Positions 20,801-51,186 of a DNA stretch of 52,626 nt are shown here, piece by piece (within the stretch, counting starts at the first letter, position 1; each line of letters starts with the position of its first letter). The stretch is from NCBI RefSeq assembly GCF_005981925.1, contig NZ_VBVX01000008.1:1-52626 (forward strand), written 5' to 3'. The stretch is from Streptomyces albidochromogenes (GTDB lineage Bacteria; Actinomycetota; Actinomycetes; Streptomycetales; Streptomycetaceae). The notes beneath the pieces were generated by a model that was not told the DNA's origin, ran no database searches, and saw nothing but the letters and a program-made list of their open reading frames with translations. Position numbers and translations under genes: made by a program.

Positions 20801-20856
20801 GGGTTCACCGCGTGGAAGGGCTCGTCGTGTCAGCGCCAGCTGGCGGAGCCGTCGTC

Positions 20857-23320: not shown

Positions 23321-23392
23321 GATCGAATCCTCTTGTCGGCAGGCTGCCGGGACCTGTCCGGGGACGGTGGGAAGCGGCGGCGGTGGGGAGGG

Positions 23393-25695: not shown

Positions 25696-25696
25696 G

Positions 25697-28313: not shown

Positions 28314-28375
28314 ACCGGGTTGTCTCCTCATCGTTGTCGTCGCGGCGAGATGTTCCTCACGCCTGTCACGCACGC

Positions 28376-34685: not shown

Positions 34686-34715
34686 GTCAGAAGGCTTCTT
34701 TCTGGGCGGTGGACG

Positions 34716-34913: not shown

Positions 34914-34939
34914 TTCGGTCCTCCGTTGTGGGTAGTGGG

Positions 34940-36142
34940 TCACCAGACGACGGGCAGGCGGTGCACCCCGTACACACTCATGTCGGTGGAGAGCGGGACG
35001 TTCTCGGCCGGGACGGCCAGGGAGAGTGTGGGGAACCGCTGGAAGAGTGCGGGCAGGGCCGTACGCATCTCCATCCGGACCAGGTTCTGGCCGAGACACT
35101 GGTGGATGCCGTAGCCGAAGGCCACGTGCCCGGTGGTGCGCCGTGTGAGGTCCAGCCGGTCTGCCTCGTCCTGGAACCAGCGCGGGTCCCGGTTGGCCGC
35201 GGACAGCGAGACGGTGATCGAGTCACCGGCCCTGAGCTGCCGGCCCGCGAACTCGAGGTCTTCCAACGGCGTACGCGGCACCCCGAAGTGAAAGACCGTC
35301 AGATATCGGAGCAGCTCTTCCACGGCGTTGTCGACGATGGACGGATCGGCCGTCAGCCGGGCGAGCTCGTCGGGGTGGGACAGCAGCGCGAACACGCTCA
35401 GCCCCAGGGACCCCGTGGTCGAGTCGTGTCCCGCGGTCAGCAGCAGGACGCCGACCCCGGCGATCTCCTCCGTGTCCAGGGTCCCGTCCTCGGTCAGAGC
35501 CTGGAGGAGCCCGGACGTCTCGCCGGGTTCACCGCCGCCGGCGGCGATGTCCTGCATGGTGGCGTACAGCCGGTCCAGGGCCGCGGAGGTGTCCGCCGCG
35601 GTCGAGGTGAGGTTGAACAGGATCCGGCTGTTGCGCTGGAACTCCGCGCGGTCACCGGACGGGACGCCGAGCAGTTCGCAGATCACCTGGGAGGCGAGGG
35701 GCAGCGCGAAAGCCTCCACGAGGTCGGTGCCCGGCCCGCCGCGTTCCATGGCGGACAGCAACTCGTCCACGATCCCCGTCAGCCGCGGCCGCAGCTCGCG
35801 CATCCGGCGCGCGGTGAACTGGCCCGCCAGCTGCTGCCGCAGCCGGGTGTGCTCCGGCGGATCCATGTCGACGAGCCATCCGGGGGCAGCCGGGACGCCG
35901 AAGAACGGCTCGGTGCCCGGTCGGTGCACGGGAGCCCGCTTGAACTCGGAACGCGCGCTGAATCGGGCGTCGGTGAGCATCGCGCGGGCCAGCTCGTGAC
36001 TGGTGACCACCCAGCCGACGTGTTCGTCGGGGTAGCGCATGCGCTGCAACGGCTCGCGGGCCTGCCACTCCATCAGCTCCTGGGGCGGATCGAACGGTCG
36101 GCCACGGCCGGTCGGGTGCGCGGGCACCGGTTCCGCGGACAA
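34940..36142 (-). CDS. Cytochrome P450
   Basis: 400 residues with a fully canonical set: I-helix LLLTAGHDSTTGS, K-helix VEELLRYLTVFHFG, and haem loop VAFGYGIHQCLGQNLVRMEM. WLVDMDPPEHTRLRQQLAGQFT is typical of Streptomyces secondary-metabolism P450s. Expected to hydroxylate an intermediate or the finished product. The ferredoxin gene begins 26 nt downstream. Unlike the other P450 in this operon its oxygen-activation residues are normal, so the two probably do different jobs. Confidence 0.9.
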   Translation of the reverse strand: MSAEPVPAHPTGRGRPFDPPQELMEWQAREPLQRMRYPDEHVGWVVTSHELARAMLTDARFSARSEFKRAPVHRPGTEPFFGVPAAPGWLVDMDPPEHTRLRQQLAGQFTARRMRELRPRLTGIVDELLSAMERGGPGTDLVEAFALPLASQVICELLGVPSGDRAEFQRNSRILFNLTSTAADTSAALDRLYATMQDIAAGGGEPGETSGLLQALTEDGTLDTEEIAGVGVLLLTAGHDSTTGSLGLSVFALLSHPDELARLTADPSIVDNAVEELLRYLTVFHFGVPRTPLEDLEFAGRQLRAGDSITVSLSAANRDPRWFQDEADRLDLTRRTTGHVAFGYGIHQCLGQNLVRMEMRTALPALFQRFPTLSLAVPAENVPLSTDMSVYGVHRLPVVW

Positions 36143-36181
36143 GGGGAGACCTCCTTCGGTGGGAAGCGGGCTGCGGAAGGA

Positions 36182-37342
36182 TCAGACGAGGTAGTCCTCG
36201 AGCCCGCCGTCGCGCACGGTGTCCAGGGTGAAGCAGTGGAAGCCGCCGCCGAACAGCCGGCGGTGGCGGTGACGGACCGGGACGGCGGTGAAGCCGTGCC
36301 GCTCCAGCTCGCGCATCAGCTCGGGACAGGCCTCGTTTACCAGCACAGTGTCCGGGCTCACCGAGAGCACATTGAGATCGATGTACCGACTGGTGAGGAT
36401 CAGGTCGTCGTCCTCGTACTGCGGGAAGTTGTAACTCTCCGGCGCCGGCGGGATGATGACGTCCCACTTCCTCAGCGGCTTCGGCAGGTAGTCCAGCACC
36501 GCCTCGGAGCGGCACAGCAGCGTTCCGGGACGCAGCGCCAGTACCATGCTGTCGATGTGGCTGTCGCTGAGCTTGCGGACGCGGTGGATTCGGAAGCGGC
36601 CCTCCAGGTGCCGCTCCAGCCAGTCGACGCCCAACTCGTGGTTGCGCGTCGATACGTTGGCCACGATGTCGCGGCCGAGGCGCAGGCACTGCGCGGCGTC
36701 GAAGAGCATCTCGTAACCGACGTCGTAGCGTGAGGCCTGCGGGTCCTCGATCGGCTCCATCGGGCCGCCGGCTGTGCTGGAGCGCGCGTATGACAAATCG
36801 AAGGAAGCGTCGGTCATCAGCGGCCGGGGCATCACCGACCAGCGGGCGCCGCGCCGGAAGTACTCCTGGAACACCGGCTTGAGCAACTGGGTCTCGAAGT
36901 ACCGGGACCGGATCATCGGCGACGTCTCGATGATTTCGTCGCCGACGATCAGGGTGTTGTCGCGGATGTTGAGTGGCGGCACTACCGATGCGGACCATGC
37001 CGGAGTGCGCACCGAGGCCGTCTCTGGGGTGACGTCCGTGGGGCGGTGCACCGTCACCCCGAGCGAGGTGAGGGTGTCGGCCAGTCCCTGCAGGTCCTCG
37101 TTCAGCTCGTCGACGTAACGCCTCTTGACCGGGATCCGGGTGCCGCTGCCGGCCTGCTCCTCAACGTGCGATCGGAGCCGCGGGTAATACCACTCTGACC
37201 GGGCGGCGTCGTTGTCACCGGCGATATTGTCGTGGAAAAAGAGCTCAAAGGAAAGTTCACGCTCATGCGAAACGTAGTTTTCCGCAGAGCCGACAATTAC
37301 TTCTTTGAGCGGCGACCATTCATCAAAGCTATTGAGTGACAT
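36182..37342 (-). CDS. Arginine:amine amidinotransferase, copy 2
   Basis: 386 residues, paralogous over its length to copy 1 (same opening MSLNSFDEWSPLKEVIVGSA and same ending GGGFHCFTLDTV). Asp in FDAAQCLRLGRD, His in SHIDSMVLALRPG and Cys in GGGFHCFTLD are kept, so it should be active. First gene of the leftward operon, facing the divergent promoter region. Two active copies suggest either two different amidination steps or one copy adapted to a carrier-bound substrate. The N-terminal 60 residues, including a SEWYYPRL segment, differ most from copy 1. Confidence 0.9.
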   Translation of the reverse strand: MSLNSFDEWSPLKEVIVGSAENYVSHERELSFELFFHDNIAGDNDAARSEWYYPRLRSHVEEQAGSGTRIPVKRRYVDELNEDLQGLADTLTSLGVTVHRPTDVTPETASVRTPAWSASVVPPLNIRDNTLIVGDEIIETSPMIRSRYFETQLLKPVFQEYFRRGARWSVMPRPLMTDASFDLSYARSSTAGGPMEPIEDPQASRYDVGYEMLFDAAQCLRLGRDIVANVSTRNHELGVDWLERHLEGRFRIHRVRKLSDSHIDSMVLALRPGTLLCRSEAVLDYLPKPLRKWDVIIPPAPESYNFPQYEDDDLILTSRYIDLNVLSVSPDTVLVNEACPELMRELERHGFTAVPVRHRHRRLFGGGFHCFTLDTVRDGGLEDYLV

Positions 37343-37421: not shown

Positions 37422-37509
37422 GCTTACACGCCACCCGAGCTGGCGCAATCGATTTTCGGACAGCCATTTTTGGACATGTAAATGTTACCTGCGCCACATC
37501 GTGATCTTG

Positions 37510-37539
37510 TTGACTGGCCACTGCGAGGCTGGCAATACT
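37510..37539 (+). promoter_or_regulatory. Candidate sigma70-type promoter
   Basis: TTGACT, 18-nt spacer, AATACT. This would start transcription near 37546, leaving a leader of about 90 nt before the methyltransferase-like gene at 37638. Assigned by eye only. Confidence 0.45.
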
Positions 37540-37637
37540 GCCGTTGCGTAGCAGCTCATTTCCTTCACGGGGCAGCCCGATACGTACCGAATCGACCGGA
37601 ACCCACAGGTTCCAGGGATGCGGAGGCTCGAGAAGTA

Positions 37638-38681
37638 ATGCCAAGCCAGCAAAAGAGTAGCCCGGAGTATCAGCAGTTCGACTTCCTCATGAATGCGCCG
37701 GCCCTGTTCAACGCCGCCGCCACTGCGGCGGAACTGCGCATTTTCATGTTCCTTTCGGAAAACCCGGGCTCTGATTTCGAGGCGATACGCCAGTTCACGG
37801 GCGTACCGTCACACCAGCTCCGCGTCCTGCTCCAGGGCGTCTGTGCGGCCAGCCTGCTTGAGCGGTCCGAGGGTGGGTACCGCAACTCCGCGGTGGCCGA
37901 GGACCTGCTGGCCTCCGAGGAGCCCGGCAGCTGGGCGCACACCCTCATCGGGTGGAAGGAGATCTATTACCCCGCCTTCGGTCAGATGACCAAGGCGCTG
38001 AAGGCCGGCACGAACACCGCGCTTGACAGCTACCCGGGCGACGAGCCCACGCTGTACAAGCGGCTGCCCCGGAACCCCGAGCTCGAGGGCGTGTTCCACA
38101 AGGCCATGGCCGCTTTCACGCTGGCTTCGATCAACGACCTGGTGGAGCGCGAGCAGTTCAGCACGGTCACGCACCTGCTGGACATCGGCGGCGGTGACAG
38201 CACCACTACCGCTCGGCTGCTCGAGCGCTACCCCCATATGCGGTCGACCGTCTTCGACCAGCCGAGTGTGTCCGAGCTCGCCCACGGCAAGGAGGCGCAG
38301 AAGTTCCTAGACCGGATCGATCTCGTCACCGGTGACTTCTTTGACACCCCCTTCCCTGAGGGTGCCGATGCGGTGCTTTTCAGTCATGTCCTCGGCATCT
38401 TCTCCGCCGAGCAGATCGTCACCCTGCTGAAGAAGGCGTACAACGTCTTGCCCTCCGGCGGCCGTGTCTTCATCTACGACTACAACGTCACAGAAAACGA
38501 GACCAAGGGAATTTACGGCGCCCGCCTCGGCCTTTACTTCAACGTTCTCGCCAGTGGAACCGGTATGGCGTACCCGGCCGAGGACTTTGAGGGCTGGCTC
38601 GCCGAGGTCGGTTTCGAGAACATCAGCACCGTTGCGGAACTCGACTATGAACATGGGTTCCACGTCGGCGTCAAGCCCTGA
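37638..38681 (+). CDS. SAM methyltransferase-fold protein (O-MT family)
   Basis: 347 residues. An N-terminal winged-helix dimerisation domain (FNAAATAAELRIFMFL ... VPSHQLRVLLQGVCAA) precedes a class I SAM domain with LLDIGGGDSTTTARLL, TVFDQPSV and DRIDLVTGDFFDTP. In related small-molecule O-methyltransferases the catalytic base lies in a His-Asp-Trp motif. Here the matching segment is SHVLGIFSAEQ, with Gly in place of His. It may methylate N or C, use another base, or have become a non-methylating SAM protein, as known for some family members. ATG chosen with GAGAAG upstream. First rightward gene of the cluster, 97 nt before the next gene. Confidence 0.8.
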   Translation: MPSQQKSSPEYQQFDFLMNAPALFNAAATAAELRIFMFLSENPGSDFEAIRQFTGVPSHQLRVLLQGVCAASLLERSEGGYRNSAVAEDLLASEEPGSWAHTLIGWKEIYYPAFGQMTKALKAGTNTALDSYPGDEPTLYKRLPRNPELEGVFHKAMAAFTLASINDLVEREQFSTVTHLLDIGGGDSTTTARLLERYPHMRSTVFDQPSVSELAHGKEAQKFLDRIDLVTGDFFDTPFPEGADAVLFSHVLGIFSAEQIVTLLKKAYNVLPSGGRVFIYDYNVTENETKGIYGARLGLYFNVLASGTGMAYPAEDFEGWLAEVGFENISTVAELDYEHGFHVGVKP

Positions 38682-38777
38682 CGGATAGAGAAGTATGTGT
38701 GCGGCACGACTCCCGTGAAACAATCCCCGGCGGGTCGTGCCGCCGCTTGGTTAACGAGGTATTCGAGGGGGCTCAGA

Positions 38778-40136
38778 ATGTTCGTAAGCAATAGTCTGTC
38801 CCGGTATTACGGGCAGGTTCAAGCGGCACTCCGCGACCTGCTCGCCGGCAAGCAGAGCGGTGATCCCGCTGCATTCACACCCGGCGTCGAGCTGCCTCAC
38901 CTCACGCCGGCCGTCCAGGAATATTTATCAGTCTCCGATGTTTCCGTCGCGCCGCTGCCCTCCTATGACGGCCGCAACCTGGCGCTGCTCGACCTGATGA
39001 GCAACCCGGCCACCATGACGACGAAGACCTTCGCCTCGCTGGTCATCGTCGCCCGGGCCGTGCGCTTCATCCAGGACACCGGTGAGCGAGTCACCATAGT
39101 CACCCCCTCGTCTGCGAACAAGGCCATCGCGCTGCGGGACGCGGTACTGCGGGCCGTCAACTGCGGCCTGGTGAGCGCTGACCAACTCAACATCGTGGTC
39201 CTCGTCCCGGAGGGCTCCGTGGCCAAGCTGCGCCGCACCGAGCTGGGCACCGACCCGTACCTGCGCACGCGCAACCCGATCGCTGTGCTGGGCCGCGACC
39301 GCACCCCCGGCGCTGTGAAAGACATCGCCCGGGGCTTCGTCGACGCCCACAGCGAAGAGCTGGCCAGGGACCACAAGACCCACCTGTGGTACACCCTCCA
39401 GCTGGAAAACTACCTCGCCGCCGACATCGTACGAGCTCTGTCGGAAGCCGAGTTCTTCCCGGCGGCGGCCAGCCGACCGAGACTGCACGCGCACGCCGTC
39501 TCCAGTGCCTACGGCCTCCTCGGACACGCCTATGGCCGCACCCGGCTGCCCGAGGCCGATCGTGCCGGCACGCCCGACCCCCGCTACTTCCTCGTCCAGC
39601 ACCTCGGCGCACCGGACATGGTGTTGAGCCTGTACAACAACGGCTCGACCGACCCCGGGAACATGCCTGCGTACTCCCTTCAGCCCGAGACCGGGCTCTA
39701 CACCCAGGAGCGGGACCCGCACTTCCCGGCCTTCACGTACGACCTACACGAAGCGCTCGACTCCACCTTCTACACCCGCAACCCCCCGACCTCGCCCCGC
39801 ATGAACGAGCTGATCCAGCAACAGGGCGGAGGCGGGCTTGTGGTCTCGCTCGCCGAGTGCCTCCAGCGCTATGCCCAGGTGCGCGACCTCCTGGGTAAGG
39901 CGAAGGTGCACCTGCCCGCCGACCCACGGGCGCTACGCGAATGGTCGCTCGTGATGGCCGTGACGGGTGTCCTCAACGGCGTCGACCGAGGCCTGATTGG
40001 CGAACAGGACATCCTGGTGCACGGTTCGGGCAGCTACTCTGCTGTCGACTTCGACAGCGTGAGCATTCATGACACGCACCTCGTCGGGGACGTCGCGGCA
40101 CTGCACCAGCTGGCTCTCACTGCCGTCAAGCAGTGA
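38778..40136 (+). CDS. DUF6002 protein, probable PLP fold-type II enzyme
   Basis: 452 residues from ATG 38778 (GAGGGG upstream). I match it to DUF6002, a family seen in actinobacterial gene clusters without proven function. Two motifs suggest a cysteine/threonine-synthase-like PLP fold: MTTKTFASLVIVARAV, where Lys could hold PLP (compare SVKDRIA), and TPSSANKAIALRDAV, like the SGNTGIALA phosphate loop. Also seen: HAHAVSSAYGLLGHAYG and LVMAVTGVLNGVDRG. It may make or modify an amino acid such as a 2,3-diamino acid by beta-replacement (inference). A TTA codon at 38925-38927 predicts bldA dependence. Its stop overlaps the next start (GTGA). Confidence 0.7.
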   Translation: MFVSNSLSRYYGQVQAALRDLLAGKQSGDPAAFTPGVELPHLTPAVQEYLSVSDVSVAPLPSYDGRNLALLDLMSNPATMTTKTFASLVIVARAVRFIQDTGERVTIVTPSSANKAIALRDAVLRAVNCGLVSADQLNIVVLVPEGSVAKLRRTELGTDPYLRTRNPIAVLGRDRTPGAVKDIARGFVDAHSEELARDHKTHLWYTLQLENYLAADIVRALSEAEFFPAAASRPRLHAHAVSSAYGLLGHAYGRTRLPEADRAGTPDPRYFLVQHLGAPDMVLSLYNNGSTDPGNMPAYSLQPETGLYTQERDPHFPAFTYDLHEALDSTFYTRNPPTSPRMNELIQQQGGGGLVVSLAECLQRYAQVRDLLGKAKVHLPADPRALREWSLVMAVTGVLNGVDRGLIGEQDILVHGSGSYSAVDFDSVSIHDTHLVGDVAALHQLALTAVKQ

Positions 40137-41356
40137 TCCTGACCGACCTTCCCCAGCTTCCCCGCCTACCCACCCGTCAGCGCCGAGGTGACCTGTCCTT
40201 GTCCACAGCAAAACCCGCTTCGCGCGATCCGTTCCCGGAACGGGTGCGCATGCACGCCGGGTACCACTGGCGCAACAGCGGCAGTCCGCTCGTCACCCGC
40301 CTCCGGGACCACTGGGACACCCGCAGGACTGCGGCCTTCCCGTCCGTCCGCTCGGACCTTGCGGGCCTGTCGGTGGGCTACTCCGGCCTGCGTGAAGGTC
40401 TCGCCTACACCCTGGAGTTCACCGAGCTGCGCCGGGAAGAGGGCGCGGATTCACCCGCAGTGCGGGCCTCGAGCCTGGTGTCGGGGTCGCGGCTGCGCGA
40501 CCCGGCGGCGCTGCCGGAGGCCGACATCCGCATCGTCGGTACCAGTGCCTCGCTCGCCCGCCGCATGCCGAAGGAGGCGTCGCTGGTCATTCCCATGCGC
40601 GTGCACTTCGTCATCGACTTCGACGGTGACCCGGATTCGGCGCGGCGGGCCATCTCCAAGCGCGAGCGGTGGCAGTTCAACCGCGACATGCGCCAGCACC
40701 AGTGGGGCTGGGAGGTGAACAGCGAGCCCGAGTGGTTCAATGCCTTCTACGACGACCACTACCGCCCCACCATGTTCCGGCGGCACGGCACGCGCGAACG
40801 GACCGAGGGCAAGAACGCCGCCTACGAGTGCCTCTTCCGCACCGGCAGGCTGTTCCAGCTGACGCAGGACGGCAAGCCGATCGGCGGGGCCCTGTGCCAC
40901 TGGGAGCCCCGCCAGAAGGTGCTCACGCTGCGTCTGCTGGGCATTGAGGACGGGGCCGAACGGCATTACGAGAGCGGCGCGTTCAAGGCGATCTACCACC
41001 TGCTCATCGGCTGGGCCGCCGAGAACGGCGTGCGGCGTCTCGACTTCCAGGGCACCGAAGCCTTCCTGAGCAAGGGGACGTTCCAGTGGAAGCGCCGGTT
41101 CGGCACCCGGGTGATCATGCCGCCGAACCACTTCGCCGACAAGCGCCTTTGGCTCCAAGTCCGCCAGGACACGCCGGCCGTACGGGACTACCTCGTCGCG
41201 AACCCGACCCTGGCCGAGACCTCGGACGGCCTGCTCGAGGCGATCTACTTCCACGACGAACAGCGGCCGCTGCGGCTCGATTTCTCGGCGAAGGCCCCGG
41301 GCGTGGAGCGGGTCCGCCACATCGACCTCGACGAGTTCCTCGCGCCCCTGCTATGA
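40133..41356 (+). CDS. FemX/GNAT-like acyl or aminoacyl transferase
   Basis: 407 residues from a GTG overlapping the DUF6002 stop. The C-terminal half is a GNAT fold of the FemAB-like type: ISKRERWQFNRDMRQHQWGW, FYDDHYRPTMFRRHG, GRLFQLTQDGKPIGGALCHW and RRLDFQGTEAFLSKGTFQWK. Relatives either acetylate or transfer an amino acid from aminoacyl-tRNA to an amine. In a cluster with few NRPS modules it is a good candidate for making one amide bond (inference). Alternative starts a little downstream (near residue 22) are possible. A strong hairpin follows the gene. Confidence 0.7.
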   Translation: MILTDLPQLPRLPTRQRRGDLSLSTAKPASRDPFPERVRMHAGYHWRNSGSPLVTRLRDHWDTRRTAAFPSVRSDLAGLSVGYSGLREGLAYTLEFTELRREEGADSPAVRASSLVSGSRLRDPAALPEADIRIVGTSASLARRMPKEASLVIPMRVHFVIDFDGDPDSARRAISKRERWQFNRDMRQHQWGWEVNSEPEWFNAFYDDHYRPTMFRRHGTRERTEGKNAAYECLFRTGRLFQLTQDGKPIGGALCHWEPRQKVLTLRLLGIEDGAERHYESGAFKAIYHLLIGWAAENGVRRLDFQGTEAFLSKGTFQWKRRFGTRVIMPPNHFADKRLWLQVRQDTPAVRDYLVANPTLAETSDGLLEAIYFHDEQRPLRLDFSAKAPGVERVRHIDLDEFLAPLL

Positions 41357-41480
41357 TCCCTCCGGTCCTGACTCTCAGGATCTTCTTCTCCCGAGGCGAT
41401 TCACTCAGCGGGCGTCATCGTCCAGCACTCTCGGTCCGAGCATCACCTGCTACCTCCCGTACGGGAGCGCGGTCCTTTCC

Positions 41481-41522
41481 GGTCGACACCTGCCCAGCCA
41501 CCCGGCCGGGCAGGTGTCGACC
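41481..41522 (+). terminator. Strong hairpin terminator
   Basis: GGTCGACACCTGCCC and GGGCAGGTGTCGACC make a perfect 15-bp stem with a 12-nt loop, followed directly by ATTTTCTT. It should end the rightward transcript after the FemX-like gene, so the HelR gene likely has its own promoter in 41523-41652. Confidence 0.85.
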
Positions 41523-41652
41523 ATTTTCTTGTTCCACGTCCGGCACCCGGCCCAGCCAGGGGCCGTCCTGCCCTCACCCGCCGCGGCCCCACTGCGGCAT
41601 GCCCCGCCGATGGGCCAACGTCACCCGCCGACCCTTTGCCATGGAGTCCCCT

Positions 41653-44082
41653 ATGACCTCGTCCTCTTCCTCGTTCGAGAAACCTCCTCGGCCGACCGAA
41701 CTCGCCCGCGAACAGGCCTACCTGGACCTGCTCCAGGACCGGTTGGGAGTCCTGCGCGAGGAGATCGGCAGTGAGGTGCGCACCGTGCTGCGCGAGTCCT
41801 CCGGCACACCACAGGGCCAGGTGGAGCGCGGAGCCGCAGCCGAGCGGCTCGCCCGCAAGCTCCTCACGCTGGAGACTGCCGAGAACGGCCTGTGCTTCGG
41901 CCGACTGGACCGGACCGACGACGAGCGCCTCTACATCGGCCGCATCGGCGTGCCGGGCGCCGGTCTCGACGACGACCCCCTGCTCATCGACTGGCGCGCC
42001 CCCGCTGCCCGGCCCTTTTACACCGCCACGGCCGCGGCCCCGCAAGGCGTGCGCCTGCGTCGTCATCTGCACACGCGGGACCGCCGCGTGCTGCGGGTGG
42101 ACGACGAACTGTTCGACGACACCGCGGCCGTGCCCGACGACGTCCAGCTCTCCGGCGAGGCTGCCCTGCTGGCCGCCCTCCAACACGACAAGACCGGCCG
42201 GATGCACGACGCCGTCGCCACCCTCCAGGCCGAGCAGGACAAGATCATCCGCTCGCCGCACGCGGGCGTCATGGTGGTCCAAGGCAGCCCCGGCACTGGC
42301 AAGACGGTCGTCGCCCTGCACCGCGCCGCCTACCTGCTCTACAGCCACGAGCGGCTGCAGCGCAGCGGCGTCCTGGTGGTAGGTCCGAACTCGGTCTTCC
42401 TGGAGTACATCAGCCAGGTGCTGCCCGGCCTTGGTGAGACCAGTGTGCTGCTGTCCTCCGTCGGAGGGCTGTACCCCGGTCTCTCGGCGTCGACCGAGGA
42501 GCCGGCGGCCTCCGCCGAGATCAAGGGGCTGCTGGTCATGGCGGACGTCCTCGACCGTGCCGTACGGGCGCGGCAGGCCGCAGTAACCGCGCCGATCGAC
42601 GTGCTGATCGGCGGCGAGCATATCCGGCTGTCACAGGACTTCCTGGCCGACGCGGCCACCCGGGCCACCGAAGACGGCCGACGGCACAATCTGGCCCGGC
42701 CGAGGTTCCGCGACATCCTCTTCGAGGAGCTGGCCGACCGGCTAGCCCGCGTCATCGGCGATATCGAGGCCCGCTTCGAGGAGGCCCTGGCCGGCGAGAT
42801 GGACGTTGAGGCCCTCGATCGCGCTGTACAGGAGGACCTGGCCAGCGTGTTCGGGCAGGACGCGAAAGTCCACGACTTCAAGGCGCGGCTGCCCGCCGAG
42901 TTCGCCGAGCGCAAGGCCAACTGGCTACACGCGCTGCCCCGGGACCCGGCTGCCCGGCGCCTCCTGGACACGCTGTGGCCGATCCTCTCCCCGGAGCAGT
43001 TGCTGGACGACCTGTACGCCGACCCCGCACGCCTCGCTGTGGCCGCACCCCAGTTCGACGAGGAGGAGCGGGCCCTGCTGGTGCGGGAACGGGGCACGCC
43101 CTGGACCGCATCCGACGTACCCCTCCTCGACGAAGCCGCCGAACTACTGGGGTACGACGACCGCGCCGAGACTGAGCGGCAAGCGGCCCACCGAGCCGCC
43201 CAACGCGATTACGCCCAAGGAGTCCTGGACATCGCGCGCGGATCCCGGGATGCGGACAGCGCCTCAGAGGAGCAGCTGCACGCCGCCGATTTGGTCACCG
43301 CCGATCAGCTCGCCGGGTGGCACGCGCAGGCGGACCTGCGCACGGTCGCGGAGCGCGCGGCGGCCGACCGGACCTGGGTCTTCGGCCATGTCATCGTGGA
43401 CGAGGCGCAGGAGCTCTCCCCGATGACCTGGCGCCTGCTGGTCCGCCGCTGCCCCACCCGCTCGTTCACCGTCGTCGGCGACGCGGCACAGTCGAGCGAC
43501 GCGGCCGGCGCGACGTCCTGGCGAGAAGCCCTGGAACCCTTCTTCGGCACGCGCTGGCGACTGTCGCAGCTCACCGTCAACTACCGCACTCCAGGCGAGA
43601 TCATGGAGGCGTCCAGCCAGGTACTGAAGGCTATCTCGCCCGAGCTGCTGCCGGCGCGGGCGGTACGCCACGGCGCAGAACCGCCGCGCTGTGATGGCAC
43701 CACGCCGGAGGAGTTCCCCGCCAGGCTGGCCGAGGTCGCGGCCTGCGCGGCCCGCCGCGTAGCGGGGGGCCGCACCGCGGTCGTCGTTCCCACCGCCGAC
43801 CTGGAACGGCTCGCCGCCGCCGTTGCGGCGCAGATTCCCGACGTCTCATGGGGCGCGGACGTCGACCTGGAGAGGGACGTCGTCGTACTCGACGTCCGCC
43901 AGGCCAAGGGGCTCGAGTTCGACTCGGTGATCGTGGCTGACCCCCAGGGGATGCTGGACAGCTCCGCCCGGGGCCTCAGCGACCTCTACGTGGCGCTGAC
44001 CAGGGCCAGCCGGTTCCTGCAGGTGCTCCACCCCGGCCCGCTACCGGAGGTTCTGTCCCACCTGGCGCAGGAGCCTTCCTGA
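41653..44082 (+). CDS. helR: HelR/HelD-type RNA polymerase recycling ATPase
   Basis: 809 residues. Superfamily 1 ATPase with a long N-terminal coiled arm (LAREQAYLDLLQDRLGVLREEIGSEV). Walker A is QGSPGTGKTVVALHRAAY, Walker B IVDEAQELSPMTW, then VVGDAAQSSD, QLTVNYRTPGEIM and LYVALTRASRFL. This is the HelD/HelR architecture. Family members pry stalled RNA polymerase off DNA, and actinobacterial HelR displaces rifamycin and confers resistance. In a biosynthetic cluster beside an exporter, it is a strong candidate for self-protection against an RNA polymerase inhibitor (inference). ATG 41653 is preferred over 41641 because GGAG lies 6 nt before it. Confidence 0.85.
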   Translation: MTSSSSSFEKPPRPTELAREQAYLDLLQDRLGVLREEIGSEVRTVLRESSGTPQGQVERGAAAERLARKLLTLETAENGLCFGRLDRTDDERLYIGRIGVPGAGLDDDPLLIDWRAPAARPFYTATAAAPQGVRLRRHLHTRDRRVLRVDDELFDDTAAVPDDVQLSGEAALLAALQHDKTGRMHDAVATLQAEQDKIIRSPHAGVMVVQGSPGTGKTVVALHRAAYLLYSHERLQRSGVLVVGPNSVFLEYISQVLPGLGETSVLLSSVGGLYPGLSASTEEPAASAEIKGLLVMADVLDRAVRARQAAVTAPIDVLIGGEHIRLSQDFLADAATRATEDGRRHNLARPRFRDILFEELADRLARVIGDIEARFEEALAGEMDVEALDRAVQEDLASVFGQDAKVHDFKARLPAEFAERKANWLHALPRDPAARRLLDTLWPILSPEQLLDDLYADPARLAVAAPQFDEEERALLVRERGTPWTASDVPLLDEAAELLGYDDRAETERQAAHRAAQRDYAQGVLDIARGSRDADSASEEQLHAADLVTADQLAGWHAQADLRTVAERAAADRTWVFGHVIVDEAQELSPMTWRLLVRRCPTRSFTVVGDAAQSSDAAGATSWREALEPFFGTRWRLSQLTVNYRTPGEIMEASSQVLKAISPELLPARAVRHGAEPPRCDGTTPEEFPARLAEVAACAARRVAGGRTAVVVPTADLERLAAAVAAQIPDVSWGADVDLERDVVVLDVRQAKGLEFDSVIVADPQGMLDSSARGLSDLYVALTRASRFLQVLHPGPLPEVLSHLAQEPS

Positions 44083-44160
44083 CCCGCTTCCCTGTCTCCA
44101 GGGCCGATGTTCCCGCACTTTCTCCCAACGTCCCGAGCAGAAAGATCAACGGATAACGCC

Positions 44161-45405
44161 ATGTCGACCACTCAAGCTCCGTCCCTCCGGCAGATCACCG
44201 GATTCCGGAACTTCTGGCTCTCCCGTACTGTTTCCGGCCTCGGATCCGCCATCACCACCGTTGCGCTGCCCGTCCTGGTCTTCCAGGAAAGTGGCTCGCC
44301 GCTCCTGGTCTCCCTGGTCGCGGCTGCCGGAACGCTGCCCTACCTCGCCTTCGGACTGATCGCCGGTGCCGTCGCGGACCGCATGGACCGGCGCGCCCTG
44401 ATGATCGTGACCGATTGCCTGAGCGCCTTGAGCCTAGCCTCCGTACCGGCCGCCTGGGCCCTGGACGTCCTGACGGTCACCCACGTCGTCGTGGTGGCGT
44501 TCCTCTCCTCCAGTCTCTCGCTCTTCTTCGACGCCGGCGTGTACGGGTTCGTCCCCGACATCGTCGGCAAGGACAAACTCGCCCAGGCCAACAGCGCGAT
44601 CTACGGCGCGGAGACCGTCGTCCGCATCGCCGGCAACGCCGTCGCAGGCGCCCTCATCGCGCTGACGAACCCCGTGGGCACGCTCGCCCTCGATGCCCTG
44701 AGCTTCGCCTGCTCCGCCCTGTTCATCAGGGCGGTCACCAACGTCACCTCCCGGCCCTCCGGTGCGGGAGACAAACGACCTGGTTTCCGGGAATCGGTGA
44801 CCGAGGGCCTCCGCTTCCTGGCCGGTCACCCCACGCTGCGGACCCTGACAGTTGTCGGCACGCTCCAGTCGTTCTCCGGCGGAGCCATCGTCGGTCAGCT
44901 CGTCGTCTTCGCCGACCGCGTCCTCGGCATCCAGGGCTCCGACGGGCGCATCGGCCTGCTCTACATGGCGTGGAGCGCCGGCGGAGTCGGCGGATCCCTG
45001 CTGCTTCCCCGGCTGCGGCGGCGCTTCGACGCCTTCCCGCTGCTCCTGGGGGTGCTGCCGATCGGCACGCTCCTCGGACTCGTCGTCGTGCTCACCACCG
45101 ACTGGCGTATCTCGCTGGTGGCGCTGGCGGTGTGGGGAACTGCCTACCTGGTCGTGCTAGTGAACACGATGACCTACTCCCAGGAGGTCACGCCCTCCGA
45201 ACTGCAGGGCCGGGTCAACACCACCCGCCGCATGCTCTCCTCCGGGCTGGGAGTCCCGCTCGGTGCCCTGGTCGCCAGCAGCATCACCGTGTCCGTCGGC
45301 ATCCGCGCTGGCATGGCCACGGCTGTGGTCTCTCTCGCCCTGGCCGCGATCGTCGTCTGGATGGTACAGCTGCGCCGCCTCCTGAGCCCCGCAGCTAAGG
45401 CATAG
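44161..45405 (+). CDS. MFS transporter, likely product exporter
   Basis: 414 residues with about twelve membrane helices. It begins FRNFWLSRTVSGLGSAITTVALPVLV, and AGAVADRMDRRALMIVTD is the loop 2-3 signature of the major facilitator family (EntS/macrolide-efflux-like branch). Central cytoplasmic loop around SGAGDKRPGFRESVTEG. It is next to the HelR gene, a usual place for an antibiotic exporter. The convergent downstream gene is separated by a bidirectional hairpin. Confidence 0.9.
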   Translation: MSTTQAPSLRQITGFRNFWLSRTVSGLGSAITTVALPVLVFQESGSPLLVSLVAAAGTLPYLAFGLIAGAVADRMDRRALMIVTDCLSALSLASVPAAWALDVLTVTHVVVVAFLSSSLSLFFDAGVYGFVPDIVGKDKLAQANSAIYGAETVVRIAGNAVAGALIALTNPVGTLALDALSFACSALFIRAVTNVTSRPSGAGDKRPGFRESVTEGLRFLAGHPTLRTLTVVGTLQSFSGGAIVGQLVVFADRVLGIQGSDGRIGLLYMAWSAGGVGGSLLLPRLRRRFDAFPLLLGVLPIGTLLGLVVVLTTDWRISLVALAVWGTAYLVVLVNTMTYSQEVTPSELQGRVNTTRRMLSSGLGVPLGALVASSITVSVGIRAGMATAVVSLALAAIVVWMVQLRRLLSPAAKA

Positions 45406-45412
45406 CTGGCCC

Positions 45413-45463
45413 AACGGCTCCGCGCCGCCCCGCCGGCCGGGCGGGGCGGCCCGCGGAGCCGTT
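45413..45463. terminator. Bidirectional terminator between convergent genes
   Basis: A GC-rich stem: AACGGCTCCGCG pairs with CGCGGAGCCGTT, and an inner CCGCCCCGCC region pairs further, around a short GGCC loop. It sits between the MFS gene and the convergent oxygenase gene and can serve both. Confidence 0.85.
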
Positions 45464-45474
45464 GTCATTACGGA

Positions 45475-46533
45475 TCAGGCCCGGTCGACCGGCACCGGCC
45501 CGTCGAAGACCACCACGCCGTCCGCGCGCCGCGCCACGGTGACCTGGCCGGTCATCGCGACGAGGGTCCGCCGCTCCCCGGTGTAGGGGCGCCGGCCGTG
45601 AGACTGCAACAGGTTGTTGACGAGCATGAGATCGCCGCGCTGCCACGGGATGGCGTACGTGCAGGCGTCGAAGGCCTCACGGACCCGGTCCACCTCCTCG
45701 TCGGAGATCGGCGAGCCGTCGCCGTACATGGCATTGCGGGGCATCTCCTCCTCGGGGAACAGCTCGCCAAGCGCCTCCCGGGTGGCGGCGGGCAGGTTCG
45801 AAACATGGAAGAGGTGTGCCTGGTTGAACCAGCACTCCTCACCGGTGCCCGGGTCAGTAACCAGGGCTGGGCCTCGCTGCGAGGTGCGCAGTCCGTAGTC
45901 GGTCCAGGTGAGGTCAATGTTTCGCTCCACGCAGTACCGCTCGACCTCCGCGCGGTCCTCGGTCTGGAAGGTCTCCTGCCAGGTCAGACCCATCCCCTCG
46001 CGGTAGGACCGCTGGTACGCGATACCCAGCTTCCGGAAGCGGTCCAGCAGATCGGACGGCAGGCGCCGGGTTACCTCGCGCACGTCGGCGAGCGGGGTCT
46101 CTCCCCCCGTCTCGGCAGGCTGGAGGCAGGCGAAGAACAGCCGGTGCGGGAAGACGCTGGCGTAGGCGCTCTCGTTGTGCTGGGTGATTGTCTCGGACGC
46201 CGGGTACTCCGTGGACGTGTACACGCCTCCGCTGACGGCGCTGCGCGGTGTCGAGCGCTCCGTGTAACTGAGCAGCTCACCACCGAAGCGCCGTGCCACC
46301 TCGGACAGTTGCTCGGGACTGTGCACGCAGTCGCGTACCAGCACCGCGCCGACGGTATCGAGCATGCCCGTCAGCGCGGCGCCGTGCTCGACCACCCAGT
46401 CCTCGGTGCGTCCCGGCGCCGTCCCCGGTGGCGTGCAGGAGGCCTTGTAGACGACGAGCCGGGTACCGCCGGATCCCGCGATCCGGCCCATGTACGGCCC
46501 GAGCACGGGCGGCGGTGCCGTGTCCTGTGGCAC
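45475..46533 (-). CDS. Fe(II)/2-oxoglutarate oxygenase (TauD/SyrP/AsnO type)
   Basis: 352 residues of the clavaminate-synthase-like group. The iron ligands are HNE in TQHNESAYASVFP (an HxE, not HxD, motif, typical of amino acid beta-hydroxylases such as AsnO, VioC and SyrP) and the distal His in LLQSHGRRPYTGERR, whose later Arg would bind 2-oxoglutarate. It lies just downstream of an A-T protein with an Asn/Asp-like pocket, so 3-hydroxylation of Asn (free or carrier-bound) is the natural guess. Gap to the A-T gene is 30 nt. Confidence 0.85.
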   Translation of the reverse strand: MPQDTAPPPVLGPYMGRIAGSGGTRLVVYKASCTPPGTAPGRTEDWVVEHGAALTGMLDTVGAVLVRDCVHSPEQLSEVARRFGGELLSYTERSTPRSAVSGGVYTSTEYPASETITQHNESAYASVFPHRLFFACLQPAETGGETPLADVREVTRRLPSDLLDRFRKLGIAYQRSYREGMGLTWQETFQTEDRAEVERYCVERNIDLTWTDYGLRTSQRGPALVTDPGTGEECWFNQAHLFHVSNLPAATREALGELFPEEEMPRNAMYGDGSPISDEEVDRVREAFDACTYAIPWQRGDLMLVNNLLQSHGRRPYTGERRTLVAMTGQVTVARRADGVVVFDGPVPVDRA

Positions 46534-46563: not shown

Positions 46564-48381
46564 TCAGCTCCGGTTGGCAGGCTGTGTGGTCGCGGTGCTG
46601 CCCTCCACACGGGAGGCCATCGCCCTGACGCTTCCGGACAGAAACACTTCCGTGGGCGTCAGCGCCAGGCCATTCCTGCGGGCTCGTGCCGACAGCTGGA
46701 TGCCGAGCAGCGAATTGCCTCCGAGCGAGAAGAAGTTGTCGTCTGGGCCCACACTCTCGACGCCGAGCAGCTCCGCGCAAAGGTCGGCGAGCAGCTTCTC
46801 GGTCGCCGTCATCGTGGTACCCGCCGCATCAGCTGCCCCGGCCGGTCCGGGCTCCGACGGCAGAGCAGCCACCAGGGCCGCGTGATCCACCTTGCCCTGG
46901 GGGGTCAGCGGCATTCGGTCGACGAGCACCACGGCGGACGGTACTAAGTAGGACGGGAGACGGCTCGCGGCGAACGCGCGCAGCCCTCCGGCCAGGTCCG
47001 TGCTCTCCCCAGCGCCATCGGCTTTCGGTACGACGTGCGCCACCAGGTGCAGCCCGCCGCGGCCGGACACCGGGGTGACGCAGACCTGTGCGACCCGGTG
47101 GTCCGCCAGCAGCGCGGTCTCCAGTTCGCCGGGCTCGACACGGTGCGAACGGATCTTCACCTGCTGATCCCTGCGCCCGACGAACACCAGGTTGCCGTCG
47201 GCACGCATCCGCACCAGGTCGCCCGTCCGATACATCCGCGCACCTCGCGCGTCGAACGGATCGCAGACGAAGCGCTCCTCTGTCAGGTCCGGTCGGTTCA
47301 GGTAGCCGAGGGCCAGTTGGTTGCCGGCGACGAAGAGTTCACCGGTCGCCCCCTCGGCCACCGGCCGCAGCTGTTCGTCCAGCACGTGGACGCGCACCTC
47401 CGGCGCGGGCCTGCCGATCGGGACGGGCCCGACGGGCAGTTCGTCCTTCGGGTCGACACGGTAGGTTACGCAGCCCACGGTTGCCTCGGTGGGACCGTAC
47501 TCGTTGGTCACCGCCACACCGGGCGCGCGGCGGCGCCACGCGTCAAGCTGCTCTCCGAGCAGCTGCTCGCCACCGACGACCAGGTCAACGGTGGCGAGAG
47601 CGGACGGCGACAGCCCATCCAAGAGGGAGAGGTGACTGGGTGTCACCTTGAGGAAGGTGACAGGACCGTGCGCCCCCGCGTCGTCAGCGGCGCTGTCCGG
47701 GTCGAGCAGCTCGGCGACGAGGACAGAGCCACCCGCCGACAGCGGTCCGAAGAGCGTGGTGACTGTGAGGTCGAAGGAAACCGCCGAGTGCAGCAGGGCG
47801 GTGCCGGCGAGGCCGGGGTAGGCCTTAAGGGCCCACCCCAGATAGGCCGCCAGACCGCGATGGGGCACGACGACGCCCTTGGGCGTGCCGGTGGACCCGG
47901 AGGTGTGGATCACGTACGCCGGGTCCACCGCCCGTACCTCGCGCCCCCGTTCGTCGTCCGTCACCGCATCACCGGGAAGTGCTTCCAGGGCGCGCAGTGT
48001 CTCCGGGGCATCCATTTCCACCCGAACGACCGCTGCCGCCAGGGTGTAGGAGCCGGTGGTAAGTAGAACGGTGGGCTGTGCGTCGTCCAGGACAGCGGCG
48101 ACACGCGCCGCCGGGTGGTCCACGTCCAGGGGAACGTAGGCGGCACCCGCCTTGAGCACCGCGTAGAGCGTGACGATCAGCTCGGCGGAGCGAGGCAGAG
48201 CGACGGCGACGATGCCACCGGGGCCGACACCCCGGGCTATCAGGTGGCGCGCGAGCCGATTGGCCCGTGCGTCCAATTCGGCGTAGGTGACAGTTCGTTC
48301 GCCCTCCCGCACCGCGAGCGCCGAGGGGTTTCGGGCCACCTGCGACTCCAGCAGTTCGTGGGCGAAGAGGACATGGTTCAT
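46564..48381 (-). CDS. Free-standing NRPS A-T protein, Asn-like specificity
   Basis: 605 residues from ATG 48381 (GAGAGG upstream). Adenylation domain: YVIHTSGSTGTPKG, SFDLTVTTLFG, NEYGPTEATVG, YRTGDLVR, QGKVDHAAL, then a carrier domain with FFSLGGNSLLG near residue 560. Hand alignment to GrsA gives D-L-T-K-V-G-E-V-G, which matches published Asn codes (DLTK-L/V-GEVG) and is close to Asp (DLTKVGHIG). No condensation or thioesterase domain. It would activate and hold Asn as a thioester for the oxygenase next door or for a ligase. A longer open frame upstream is not coding. Confidence 0.9.
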   Translation of the reverse strand: MNHVLFAHELLESQVARNPSALAVREGERTVTYAELDARANRLARHLIARGVGPGGIVAVALPRSAELIVTLYAVLKAGAAYVPLDVDHPAARVAAVLDDAQPTVLLTTGSYTLAAAVVRVEMDAPETLRALEALPGDAVTDDERGREVRAVDPAYVIHTSGSTGTPKGVVVPHRGLAAYLGWALKAYPGLAGTALLHSAVSFDLTVTTLFGPLSAGGSVLVAELLDPDSAADDAGAHGPVTFLKVTPSHLSLLDGLSPSALATVDLVVGGEQLLGEQLDAWRRRAPGVAVTNEYGPTEATVGCVTYRVDPKDELPVGPVPIGRPAPEVRVHVLDEQLRPVAEGATGELFVAGNQLALGYLNRPDLTEERFVCDPFDARGARMYRTGDLVRMRADGNLVFVGRRDQQVKIRSHRVEPGELETALLADHRVAQVCVTPVSGRGGLHLVAHVVPKADGAGESTDLAGGLRAFAASRLPSYLVPSAVVLVDRMPLTPQGKVDHAALVAALPSEPGPAGAADAAGTTMTATEKLLADLCAELLGVESVGPDDNFFSLGGNSLLGIQLSARARRNGLALTPTEVFLSGSVRAMASRVEGSTATTQPANRS

Positions 48382-48893
48382 GAGCTTGCCTCTCGGACTC
48401 GGACCTATCGCCCAGGGAAGGCGCCCGTCCGGCACGCGCGGTCTGTGCCGGGAGTGCGCGGCAACCACCCGCACGCTGGCAGGGATGACGCCCCGCCCAG
48501 CACCCGGGCGTGGGCGATGCCGTGCGGGCAGACGCGCGGCGACAGTGACGGACAACCCTTTTGGGCATCGGCGGGCAATACTGCGTTGGAGCAGCAGTTT
48601 CATCTCCGCGGCGGCTCGGCGAGCGCCTCAACACACGGGTCGTCCGCTATTAATGGCAGACGCAGGCATCCTTGGCAAGGGGTTATTTCCTGCGCGCCTG
48701 ATGGACGCACCGCAGGGGCCGTACAGAGTACCTCGGAGCCTCGGCGGTACGAATGGCGCTAGCCGGTCAAAAACGGAAATTGCAGACCGTGCGAGGCATG
48801 GAACACACAAGGACGATCTTGCCTCCAGTGGGTCTATGGTGTTCTATGGTCAGCGAAGGCTGTAGTCGCAGGTTCATCCAGGGGAGGGCCCTC
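48382..48893. other. Divergent intergenic region
   Basis: About 510 bp between the leftward A-T gene and rightward ATP-grasp gene, falling in GC towards the right. Open frames here are shadows or unlikely 5' extensions. It should carry promoters for both directions, but I cannot place convincing -35/-10 boxes. Confidence 0.4.
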
Positions 48894-49838
48894 TTGGCTA
48901 GCGTCATCAATTGGATATACCAAGAGGACGATCTCGAATTAGATGAGATTCTAAGATTCGAAGAGAGCCTCTCGAAGCGATACCTCCCCCTGGCCCATAG
49001 GATAGGCTTTGACTTCCGTTTAATCAGGGCTGGCGAGATCATGCTGTCCTGTGTCGGCAAGCCCGTGATGCGTTATCGCGGCGAGGATTTGCTGGAGACC
49101 CGGCAGTGCTACATCGCCGAGGACATCAGCATGGAGCCGCAGGGCCTCCAGCACATGCGTGCGATCTACCGGACGATCCACGCCAGTAACTCGGTCCTGC
49201 TCAACAGGTCCATCAGCGGCCCGGATTACCTAGAACGGGACAAGCTGGCGCTCCTCCAGCACGCCGCCAACCTGGGCGTGCCGGGCCTCAAGACCGTTGC
49301 GGTGCCCCCTAAAAAGTACGCCCGGAAGGTCATCCCCGAGGTGGAGCGGGAGCTCGGCCCCGGACCCTATATCGTCAAGCCGCGCGAACTCGGCATGGGC
49401 GTGGGCGTCCTCAAGATCGATACGGACCAACAGCTCGCCTCGACGATCGATATCGTCTCGACGACCGGAACGGGCTACATCGTTCAGCCATTCCTTCCTC
49501 ATCACGCAGACATGCGGGTGTTTGTCGTCGATGGCCGAGTAGTCACTTCGCTCAGCCGAAAGCCTCGGCCCGGTGGATATCTCGCCAGTATCAGTCAGGG
49601 CGGCTCGCTGGAAGTGAACGATGATCATCTCCAGGTCGAGGAATGGTGCAACAGGATAGCGAAGAGTCTGAATGCGGAATTCCTTTGCATCGACTGGCTT
49701 ATGACAGATTCTGGGCCGATTCTAAATGAGTGGAGTACGGCCAGCGCCGGATTCACGCTCCTGCCGGACCCGCAACTCACTCTGCTCGCTGACGCCTTTT
49801 TCGGCTGGATCAAGCGTAAATTCGAGGAAGGGAACTGA
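48894..49838 (+). CDS. ATP-grasp ligase (RimK-like)
   Basis: 314 residues. The start is set at a TTG (48894) because GGGGAGG lies 7 nt upstream. In-frame ATGs at 48846 and 48798 lack such a site. ATP-grasp signature: LERDKLALLQHAANLGVPG, YIVKPRELGMGVGVLKI, IVQPFLPHHADMRVFVVDG, and metal-binding FLCIDWLMTDSGPILNEWST. Such enzymes join a carboxylate to an amine with ATP, so this is a likely amide-forming step. Two TTA codons (48939-48941 and 49020-49022) and a lower GC 5' end set it apart from its neighbours and predict bldA control. The next gene begins 4 nt after its stop. Confidence 0.8.
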   Translation: MASVINWIYQEDDLELDEILRFEESLSKRYLPLAHRIGFDFRLIRAGEIMLSCVGKPVMRYRGEDLLETRQCYIAEDISMEPQGLQHMRAIYRTIHASNSVLLNRSISGPDYLERDKLALLQHAANLGVPGLKTVAVPPKKYARKVIPEVERELGPGPYIVKPRELGMGVGVLKIDTDQQLASTIDIVSTTGTGYIVQPFLPHHADMRVFVVDGRVVTSLSRKPRPGGYLASISQGGSLEVNDDHLQVEEWCNRIAKSLNAEFLCIDWLMTDSGPILNEWSTASAGFTLLPDPQLTLLADAFFGWIKRKFEEGN

Positions 49839-49842
49839 CGGC

Positions 49843-51186
49843 GTGGCCGACGAGACCTGGTTCGGCGCCGCGAAGCTGCCGGAGAAGTCGCGACTGGCGG
49901 TTCCGGAACTCACCGAGCACCTGGATCGTACGCTGGACGACCTGGACTACCCGGTCAACAGCACCTCCATGAACCCGGTGGTCCTGCCACAGGAGCGCTA
50001 CACGGAACTCTTCGACGCTACCCGGCAGTTGCTCCGGCTGCTTCGTCGCGCGCTTCTCGGAATCGCCCCGGACTTCCACGGAAGACTCCGCGCGCTCGGC
50101 GCGGTGGAGGAGAACTATCCGCTGTGGGTCCAGGGACCTCTCGAAGAGGCGTACGCGACGTGCATGACCCGCCCGGACATCGCCATCGGTCCGACAGGTC
50201 CCAAGTTCCTCGAGTTCAACATCGGTTCCGGTATCGGCGGCGTCGTCGAGACCTCCGTGCAGTCCGCAGTCTGGAAGGCCGCGTACGGTGGCGCCGACGC
50301 GGCACCCTTCCGCGCCACGCCGGACCCGCTCTCCGTGCGAGACCAGATCTTCGTACGGGCTGTGCGCGATCTAGGCACCCCTCCCGCCGTGGCCATCGTC
50401 GGGGCACTGCGCGAGTTCAACGCCGTACGCACAACACGGTACTTCGACATTCAGGTCCAGTCGTTGCGTAACCAGGGCCTGCAAGCGGAGTACTTCGAGC
50501 CCGAGCAGCTGCTCCAAGGGCTCGGCCTAGGCGGAGGCCGCTCGACTCCTCGCTACCGGCTCGGCCTGCGGCACTTCACCATCTTCGACTGGACGCGGCT
50601 CGGGATCGATCTCGCACCGATGCGGTCCGCCTTGAACGCGGAGTGCTTCCTGATCGCCTCTCAGAGCGCCTACCTCGTCGCCAACAAAAAGGTGCTGGGC
50701 TGGGTCTCTGAAGGGCTGCCGTGGATGACCGCAGAGGACCATGCGCTGGTTGAACAGTACTTGCCCTGGACCAGGACCGTTGCCGAGCGGCCGGTGCGCT
50801 GGCGCGGTATCACCCGGCCGCTGCCCGAACTGCTGCTGTCGGAGAGGGAGAACTTCGTCCTGAAGCCTGCCATCGGACTGGGCAGTCACGGTGTCGTCCT
50901 CGGCCGCCACGTCGACGAAGCCACCTGGCGCACGACCTTGGGCACTGCGCTGGGCACCGGCCAGTACATCGCGCAGGAGTACGTCGAGCCCGTGCCGTAC
51001 CGCGTGGAATTGCGTGAGGAGGGCAGCGAGGACACCTTCGAGACGGACGTCCACCCTGTACTGAGCCCCTTCCTCTTCGACGGGCAGCCCGGTGGGTGCC
51101 TGGTGCGCTACCTGCCGCCCGGCCGCGCGGGTGTCACCACCATCCAGGGCAATGGCGCGTTGCCGTCGGTCGCGCTGCCCGTCTGA
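49843..51186 (+). CDS. Second ATP-grasp-like ligase, divergent
   Basis: 447 residues from a GTG 4 nt after the preceding stop, with GAGGAAGGGA upstream. The C-terminal part has ENFVLKPAIGLGSHGVVLG and YIAQEYVEPVPYRVEL, as in circularly permuted ATP-grasp proteins. The N-terminal part has KFLEFNIGSGIGGVVETS, whose E-F-N resembles metal-binding residues. N- and C-terminal halves together would make one active site in permuted order. Likely ligates a carboxylic acid to an amine. The closest functional relatives are unclear to me. Tight linkage with the RimK-like gene suggests the two act in sequence or as partners. Confidence 0.65.
   Translation: MADETWFGAAKLPEKSRLAVPELTEHLDRTLDDLDYPVNSTSMNPVVLPQERYTELFDATRQLLRLLRRALLGIAPDFHGRLRALGAVEENYPLWVQGPLEEAYATCMTRPDIAIGPTGPKFLEFNIGSGIGGVVETSVQSAVWKAAYGGADAAPFRATPDPLSVRDQIFVRAVRDLGTPPAVAIVGALREFNAVRTTRYFDIQVQSLRNQGLQAEYFEPEQLLQGLGLGGGRSTPRYRLGLRHFTIFDWTRLGIDLAPMRSALNAECFLIASQSAYLVANKKVLGWVSEGLPWMTAEDHALVEQYLPWTRTVAERPVRWRGITRPLPELLLSERENFVLKPAIGLGSHGVVLGRHVDEATWRTTLGTALGTGQYIAQEYVEPVPYRVELREEGSEDTFETDVHPVLSPFLFDGQPGGCLVRYLPPGRAGVTTIQGNGALPSVALPV

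Follow-up and report, generated by a model that had tools for sequence, protein, structure and literature searches.

The HelD-family gene and its exporter

We analyzed a stretch of 52,626 nucleotides of Streptomyces albidochromogenes DNA (contig NZ_VBVX01000008.1; hereafter the window), which holds the gene of a predicted HelD-family (class II) RNA-polymerase-recycling ATPase of 809 residues (41653-44082, plus strand) and, next to it, that of a predicted MFS exporter of 414 residues (44161-45405, plus strand; start taken as 44161). An earlier note on this DNA had placed the adjoining ATPase and pump within a guanidinylating peptide cluster, and the open reading frames (ORFs), the Pfam and PDB matches, and the cluster genes on both sides bear this out. 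All three clusters of this kind that we found carry the HelD gene, and in all three the exporter is its neighbor. The association of a cluster-bound HelD with a pump suggests self-protection at the level of transcription.

The solved structure closest to the window HelD is that of Mycobacterium smegmatis HelD (6yxu_H, E 5e-148), aligned in two long stretches, and Pfam recognizes pieces of a UvrD-type motor. The motifs of class II HelD proteins are present: DWRAP in the N-terminal domain, GSPGTGKT (Walker A), DEAQE, and YVALTRA toward the C-terminus. The pump, whose gene ends at 45405, matches MFS_3/MFS_1. Judged by these features, the window protein is a class II HelD; by its HelD_MYCSM score, given below, it is a diverged paralog rather than the mycobacterial equivalog.

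The cluster copy is distinct from HelR

The earlier note called the window copy HelR, a label that did not hold. The protein stays below every curated cut-off: 646 bits against 1100 for motor_HelR_2 (NF041258), 592 against 1051 for HelD_MYCSM (NF041465), and 439 against 750 for motor_HelR (NF041254). The copy on contig C230 of the same genome passes motor_HelR with 1290.5 bits against the cut-off of 750, and the window HelD is 38.6% identical to it. The rifamycin-associated element, in the letters that we take its pattern to have, has no match within the window at up to three mismatches; its palindrome, with one mismatch, lies at C230:4640-4658, upstream of the HelR start. In the genomes of the two other clusters, G334 and Streptomyces sp. 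WAC06614, a two-mismatch palindrome lies upstream of the HelR-clade copy, so that an element-like palindrome stands by another HelD in all three cluster genomes. Matches to the element and to its reversed control numbered 2 and 0 in the window's own genome, 2 and 3 in G334, and 3 and 4 in WAC06614; since the control equals or exceeds the element in the latter two, only the position of the palindrome is telling there. According to passages of PMC8655204, the element is missing in some members of the HelR group.

The window's own genome (7.27 Mb in 795 contigs) contains four further full-length HelD genes (C672, C713, C230, and C109). C213 and C134 each have a short match near a contig end, and these may be one further split copy. 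As passages of PMC8655204 give four to five HelD genes per Streptomyces genome, the window copy might be thought a housekeeping HelD or HelR that chances to lie beside the cluster. The phylogeny of the genome's copies, as the earlier note had suggested, has been run and contradicts this. In a 58-row tree, the five HelR rows and the three cluster HelDs fall into separate clades, each supported at 100/100; sister to the cluster clade is a copy in genome G157 (56.2% identity). The cluster clade is retained (100/100) in a 27-row tree that includes relatives from other families, and in both trees it stands apart from the four other full-length copies. The distribution of the gene and the left edge of the conserved block, both described below, and the location of the real HelR and the other copies elsewhere in the genome also contradict a housekeeping copy, which we regard as hardly credible. 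The cut-offs, the missing element, and the tree together rule out a true HelR at this locus; by the same sequence evidence, the real HelR of this genome is the C230 copy.

The window HelD nevertheless resembles Streptomyces HelR (S. venezuelae SVEN_6029 type, NF041254) in its class II architecture, the DWR motif, Walker A, and the loop toward the active site, and a role in RNA polymerase target protection, as for HelR, is proposed for it. It differs in its low identity to the HelR of its own genome, its low score, the lack of a rifamycin element, its separate clade, and its location within a biosynthetic cluster. Mycobacterial HelD/HelR_2 (NF041465, NF041258; 6yxu) is its best solved relative; the scores fall well short of both cut-offs, and about 40 additional residues around positions 370-425, found also in the G157 relative, set the window protein apart from the C672 copy of its own genome.

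Conservation of the block in two other genomes

The region 21942-52104 of the window is colinear with G334 in one piece at 91.2% DNA identity (30,227 aligned columns), with the HelD and pump genes inside. Across the 60 kb of G334 compared, there was no further match longer than 150 bp except that of the two amidinotransferase genes to each other, and to the left of the block edge the 21.9 kb of the window and 24.4 kb of G334 had no match above this length in common. In the third cluster, in WAC06614, the HelD and the pump (74% and 81% protein identity, respectively) again adjoin each other. There the pair is inverted and sits at another place among the cluster genes, next to the ATP-grasp genes; on the far side of HelD is a SpoIIE/ANTAR protein. 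No A-PCP, TauD, dehydrogenase, or class IV aminotransferase gene was seen in the part of this locus covered (the contig without 1-5798 and 36000-36701).

The cluster HelDs of the window and G334 are 89.6% identical; the other four HelD pairs of these genomes are 69.3, 88.5, 76.9, and 84.6% identical, and RpoB, in the part compared, 94.9%. Transfer of the cluster fits these identities. The dN/dS ratio of the HelD gene between the window and G334 is 0.187, inside the range of the other cluster genes; the comparison leaves out the O-methyltransferase and the GNAT-like gene (11 and 17 aligned codons), and the values for E2 (343 codons) and thioesterase 2 (187 codons) come from partial alignments. 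The cluster HelD is thus under purifying selection. E2 and thioesterase 2 were matched in two pieces each at the G334 loci (L133 and L134), possibly because of frameshifts in the genome or the assembly.

Distribution of the cluster HelD

Among 32 loci around close amidinotransferases, several of which end early at contig ends, only the one with the full cluster has a HelD match. In five more genomes that have related amidinotransferase loci, no HelD of the cluster clade is present (best pieces 46-56%). The search of 294 other Streptomyces genomes, with three candidates scored per genome, gave no HelD match reaching 60%; the highest identity was 55%. A further 40 genomes, drawn as relatives, were scored with at most 24 candidates each. 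At E 1e-100, matches (50-54% identical) came from 12 of them, every one in another family of the order; none of the 24 genomes of the same genus gave one. With so few candidates scored per genome, a diverged ortholog could be missed in such draws. At E 1e-200, a draw of 394 genomes of the class (two candidates per genome) returned the window and G722 only. G722 has the same contig and coordinates as WAC06614 (G392) and is taken as the same assembly, not as a fourth cluster. This draw is a weak test, because G157, G043, G213, G401, G405, G406, and G408 pass the threshold and yet were not returned.

No biosynthetic cluster was recognized among the 20 neighboring ORFs scanned around the HelD copies of G157, G043, and G213, and no other cluster gene lies within the stretches covered around four order-level HelD relatives. 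The G157 HelD adjoins an MFS-family gene on the other strand that is too dissimilar to be matched by the window pump. Phage or plasmid origin was considered and set aside, as all matches there (10 and 86 records) were less than 60% identical.

The earlier note had taken the gene for a self-resistance copy of HelR and had named a single housekeeping copy, conserved at this place in strains lacking the cluster, as one finding that would overturn this. We found instead four other HelDs in the genome and no ortholog in the searched genomes without the cluster. The gene is not a housekeeping copy and moves with the cluster; that part of the claim stands, and the name HelR does not.

The leader of the HelD gene

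A promoter-like site, TCGACG-18-TATGAT (41328-41357, plus strand; a consensus match only), precedes the HelD gene. It is the sole such site found in 41300-45600 (0.1 expected), and its last bases fall on the stop codon of the preceding gene. The window, both strands taken together, has a single TGCTAT(A/G)(A/G)T, 304 bases upstream of the HelD start. The sequence is kept in all three clusters, 305 (G334) and 246 (WAC06614) bases upstream of the start in the other two; the gene upstream of it in WAC06614 differs from that in the window. Within the leader lies a hairpin with 19-nt arms that are 95% complementary (41481-41522, plus strand). It folds far more stably than shuffles, with a z value of -7.5 (G334, -3.2; WAC06614, -6.0). 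In an alignment of three sequences only, both partners differ in four of its 18 pairs, 94.2% of cells being paired, and the pairs covary in the third cluster; no such pair appeared at any of six slid registers, and 9 of 500 shuffles reached as much. A T-run follows the hairpin in two of the three clusters. These features suggest that the hairpin could be an attenuator of HelD or a terminator for upstream transcription, and the conserved leader may regulate HelD. The terminator-separated promoter region described in the earlier note thus has a different layout: the strong hairpin is located downstream of the promoter-like site, within the HelD leader.

The one hairpin that the terminator scan returned is a small one at 41364-41382, which is at chance level (1 found, 0.9 expected) and sits near the expected transcription start of the leader (41349-41652); the large hairpin was not listed. 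Two matches to known RNA families were far below the gathering scores and were taken as chance. A convergent dual-promoter rifampicin alarm, as described in passages of PMC12802891, was rejected since no minus-strand promoter-like site was found in 41300-45600.

With its own conserved promoter-like site and leader, HelD can act as an independent unit. This would also suit a gene without a part in resistance, whether one that aids transcription of the cluster or one linked to the pump as a neutral passenger; the MFS-family gene beside the G157 relative likewise means that a pump next to HelD may signify little. Against a passenger stand the purifying selection and the retention of the gene through the rearrangement in the third strain. 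As 31 of the 32 amidinotransferase loci, several of them cut by contig ends, have no HelD match, such clusters do not seem to need HelD as a helper. We consider either role quite unlikely.

Proposed function

HelD proteins generally recycle stalled RNA polymerase. We favor, with some reserve, the proposal that the window HelD is a dedicated transcription-rescue or target-protection factor, paired with the exporter for self-protection of the producer. In this model, the MFS pump would export the product. The dedicated class II HelD would enter RNA polymerase stopped by the product, detach it from nucleic acids, and perhaps from the drug as well, and make it available again. As HelD acts on stalled polymerase generally, the case is stronger for transcription as the threatened process than for RNA polymerase as the binding target.

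An altered target would be another means of self-resistance. All three cluster genomes have one rpoB each. In about 1,031 residues of the C-terminal part, compared with the best 29 of 39 other Streptomyces genomes, no residue rare in those 29 is common to the three cluster genomes; each has private ones, and none falls in the rifampicin region. Within the part compared, a spare or altered rpoB was therefore rejected. As rpoB is single and ordinary where compared, HelD and the pump are the visible candidates for protection.

The lack of a common altered rpoB residue, which would call for another form of protection, is also consistent with the view of the earlier note, apart from the name HelR, that the product binds RNA polymerase directly and that the cluster HelD displaces it as HelR displaces rifamycins. 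Two features of the protein agree with this view. The primary-channel (PCh) loop stretch is retained, as seen by alignment only; it is missing in the C713 copy of the same genome and shortened in the C109 copy. Glu540 (residue numbers counted by eye) is aligned opposite Asp485 of M. smegmatis HelD, an acidic tip residue that, in passages of PMC10719064, is reported to reach the rifampicin pocket. Other passages of this paper state that class II HelD gives no protection from fidaxomicin, and in the literature passages at hand displacement is documented for rifamycins only. The pseudouridimycin (pum/sap) cluster, whose product the earlier note had cited as a rare guanidino peptide acting on RNA polymerase, resembles the window cluster in having an amidinotransferase, two carboxylate-amine (ATP-grasp) ligases, and an MFS pump, and differs in that its sap gene table, as given in the part of PMC6586884 at hand, has no helicase; this, too, argues against direct binding. 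No pseudouridine synthase (TruD family) was recognized among the window ORFs scanned. In the 58-row tree, the cluster clade is joined to a mycobacterial-type Tsukamurella helR at 98/88; this link gives direct binding no support, because ordinary copies such as C672 fall in the branch too, the row of Tsukamurella is a long one, and the 27-row tree leaves the fork unresolved. Taken together, direct binding is a tentative possibility.

Alternatively, the product may stall transcription indirectly, by DNA binding or damage or by nucleotide depletion, with HelD clearing the stalled polymerases. A guanidinium group suits nucleic-acid binding, and the recycling of stalled complexes is the general function of HelD. 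In passages of PMC8655204, Larsen et al. suggest such a role for Nonomuraea HelDs during production of DNA-intercalating compounds. In contrast, no DNA-repair or DNA-binding protection gene was recognized among the cluster ORFs scanned. Indirect stalling also fits the evidence, though we consider it rather unlikely.

Several points weigh against a dedicated protection factor. HelD-family genes are common, and generic recycling of stalled polymerase need not mean protection from a drug. The window protein failed the HelD_MYCSM and motor_HelR cut-offs, and the HelR_2 cut-off as well. The known clusters number only three, of which two are close to each other, and the block's right edge, with just 522 bases of the window beyond it, is poorly tested. 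Among the five HelD pairs of the window and G334, the cluster HelD leads only narrowly (C713 type, 88.5%). Between the window and WAC06614, the cluster HelD is 73.8% identical, the lowest of four pairs (the others 76.0, 79.2, and 83.7%), so that older divergence or faster change must be allowed for. Among the RNA polymerase genes, the comparison covered only rpoB.

Target protection of the HelD type is documented in the case of rifamycins. A HelD inherited together with a biosynthetic cluster would be an example of such a mechanism serving self-resistance, and it would indicate, from sequence alone, a transcription-blocking compound; transcription is a validated target process of antibiotics. 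If the reading is true, it is also a warning that HelD-type protection could fit drugs other than rifamycins. In the open-licence literature, neither HelD nor HelR came up as a self-resistance gene of a cluster, in a search weakened in part by "held" being a common word. A bolder version, which we think unlikely, is that a guanidino-arylglycine peptide of a new class inhibits RNA polymerase directly and is displaced by a purpose-evolved cluster HelD, and that termination at the leader hairpin senses the performance of the polymerase, so that the drug would induce its own rescue factor. If true, a producer would have taken up HelR-style target protection to resist a drug of its own that is not a rifamycin.

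The cluster genes and the expected product

To the left of HelD, the minus strand encodes a class IV aminotransferase with the E2, E1-beta, and E1-alpha components of a 2-oxoacid dehydrogenase (22238-26821), a DpgC-like arylacetyl-CoA dioxygenase (26868-28373; DpgC 2np9, E 1.5e-120), thioesterase 1 (28376-29125), a nonribosomal peptide synthetase (NRPS) of C-A-PCP type (29122-32193), cytochrome P450 a (32190-33488), amidinotransferase 1 (33543-34685), cytochrome P450 b (34940-36142), and amidinotransferase 2 (36182-37342). In the C domain of the NRPS, a pattern search found no HHxxxD motif; the domain may be inactive or of an unusual kind. Amidinotransferase 2 is of the inosamine-phosphate amidinotransferase, SxtG, or glycine amidinotransferase type, and amidinotransferase 1 is 60% identical to it. 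This pair (33543-37342) flanks a P450, and close homologs of both occur together in loci L065, L067, and L068, where no HelD was matched. An O-methyltransferase (37482-38681), a DUF6002 protein (38697-40136), and a protein without Pfam or PDB match that is GNAT-like by eye only (40133-41356) follow on the plus strand.

On the right of the pump, a TauD-type dioxygenase (45475-46533) and a stand-alone A-PCP (46564-48603) lie on the minus strand. They are followed on the plus strand by a RimK-like ATP-grasp ligase (48753-49838), a conserved cluster protein without Pfam match (49726-51186) that is ligase-like by neighborhood only, and thioesterase 2 (51220-52023) at the right end of the conserved block. 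The start codon of the conserved protein is not fixed, and comparisons used 49855-51186. Its homolog recurs with the DUF6002 and GNAT-like genes (38697-41356) in Streptomyces loci L121, L125, L126, and L142, and the three possibly form a peptide-tailoring module. The specificity code of the A-PCP, read by eye, looks Asn/Asp-like; together with the adjoining TauD dioxygenase, an asparagine-like code suggests a hydroxyasparagine building block.

The two amidinotransferases make a guanidine in the product likely, in agreement with the guanidino peptide of the earlier note. Along with the DpgC-like dioxygenase and the 2-oxoacid dehydrogenase, the NRPS, and the ATP-grasp genes, they point to a guanidine-bearing small peptide of arylglycine type. 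The dihydroxyphenylglycine-type clusters at L065, L067, and L072, which we take to resemble those of pheganomycin and resorcinomycin, share with the window cluster close homologs of amidinotransferase 2 (77-79%) and of DpgC; P450 b, the O-methyltransferase, and amidinotransferase 1 have counterparts in one or another of them. They differ in that all three have a type III polyketide synthase, that L065 and L067 have a small ECH protein taken as DpgB-like, and that none has a HelD. Neither the synthase nor the small protein is among the window ORFs scanned; the 2-oxoacid dehydrogenase and the class IV aminotransferase stand in their place, and from the pathway the arylglycine would be expected to derive from an aryl-pyruvate.

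Further to the left, outside the block shared with G334, a CATRA-N/CATRA-C protein is followed by a CHAT-domain protein (9815-14233), a possible conflict or defense module. Transposase-like genes (DDE_3 and IS110 type) and a transposase-type winged-helix protein also lie left of the cluster edge, at 136-1275 and 6972-7901 on the minus strand and at 20683-21294 on the plus strand, and fit mobility.

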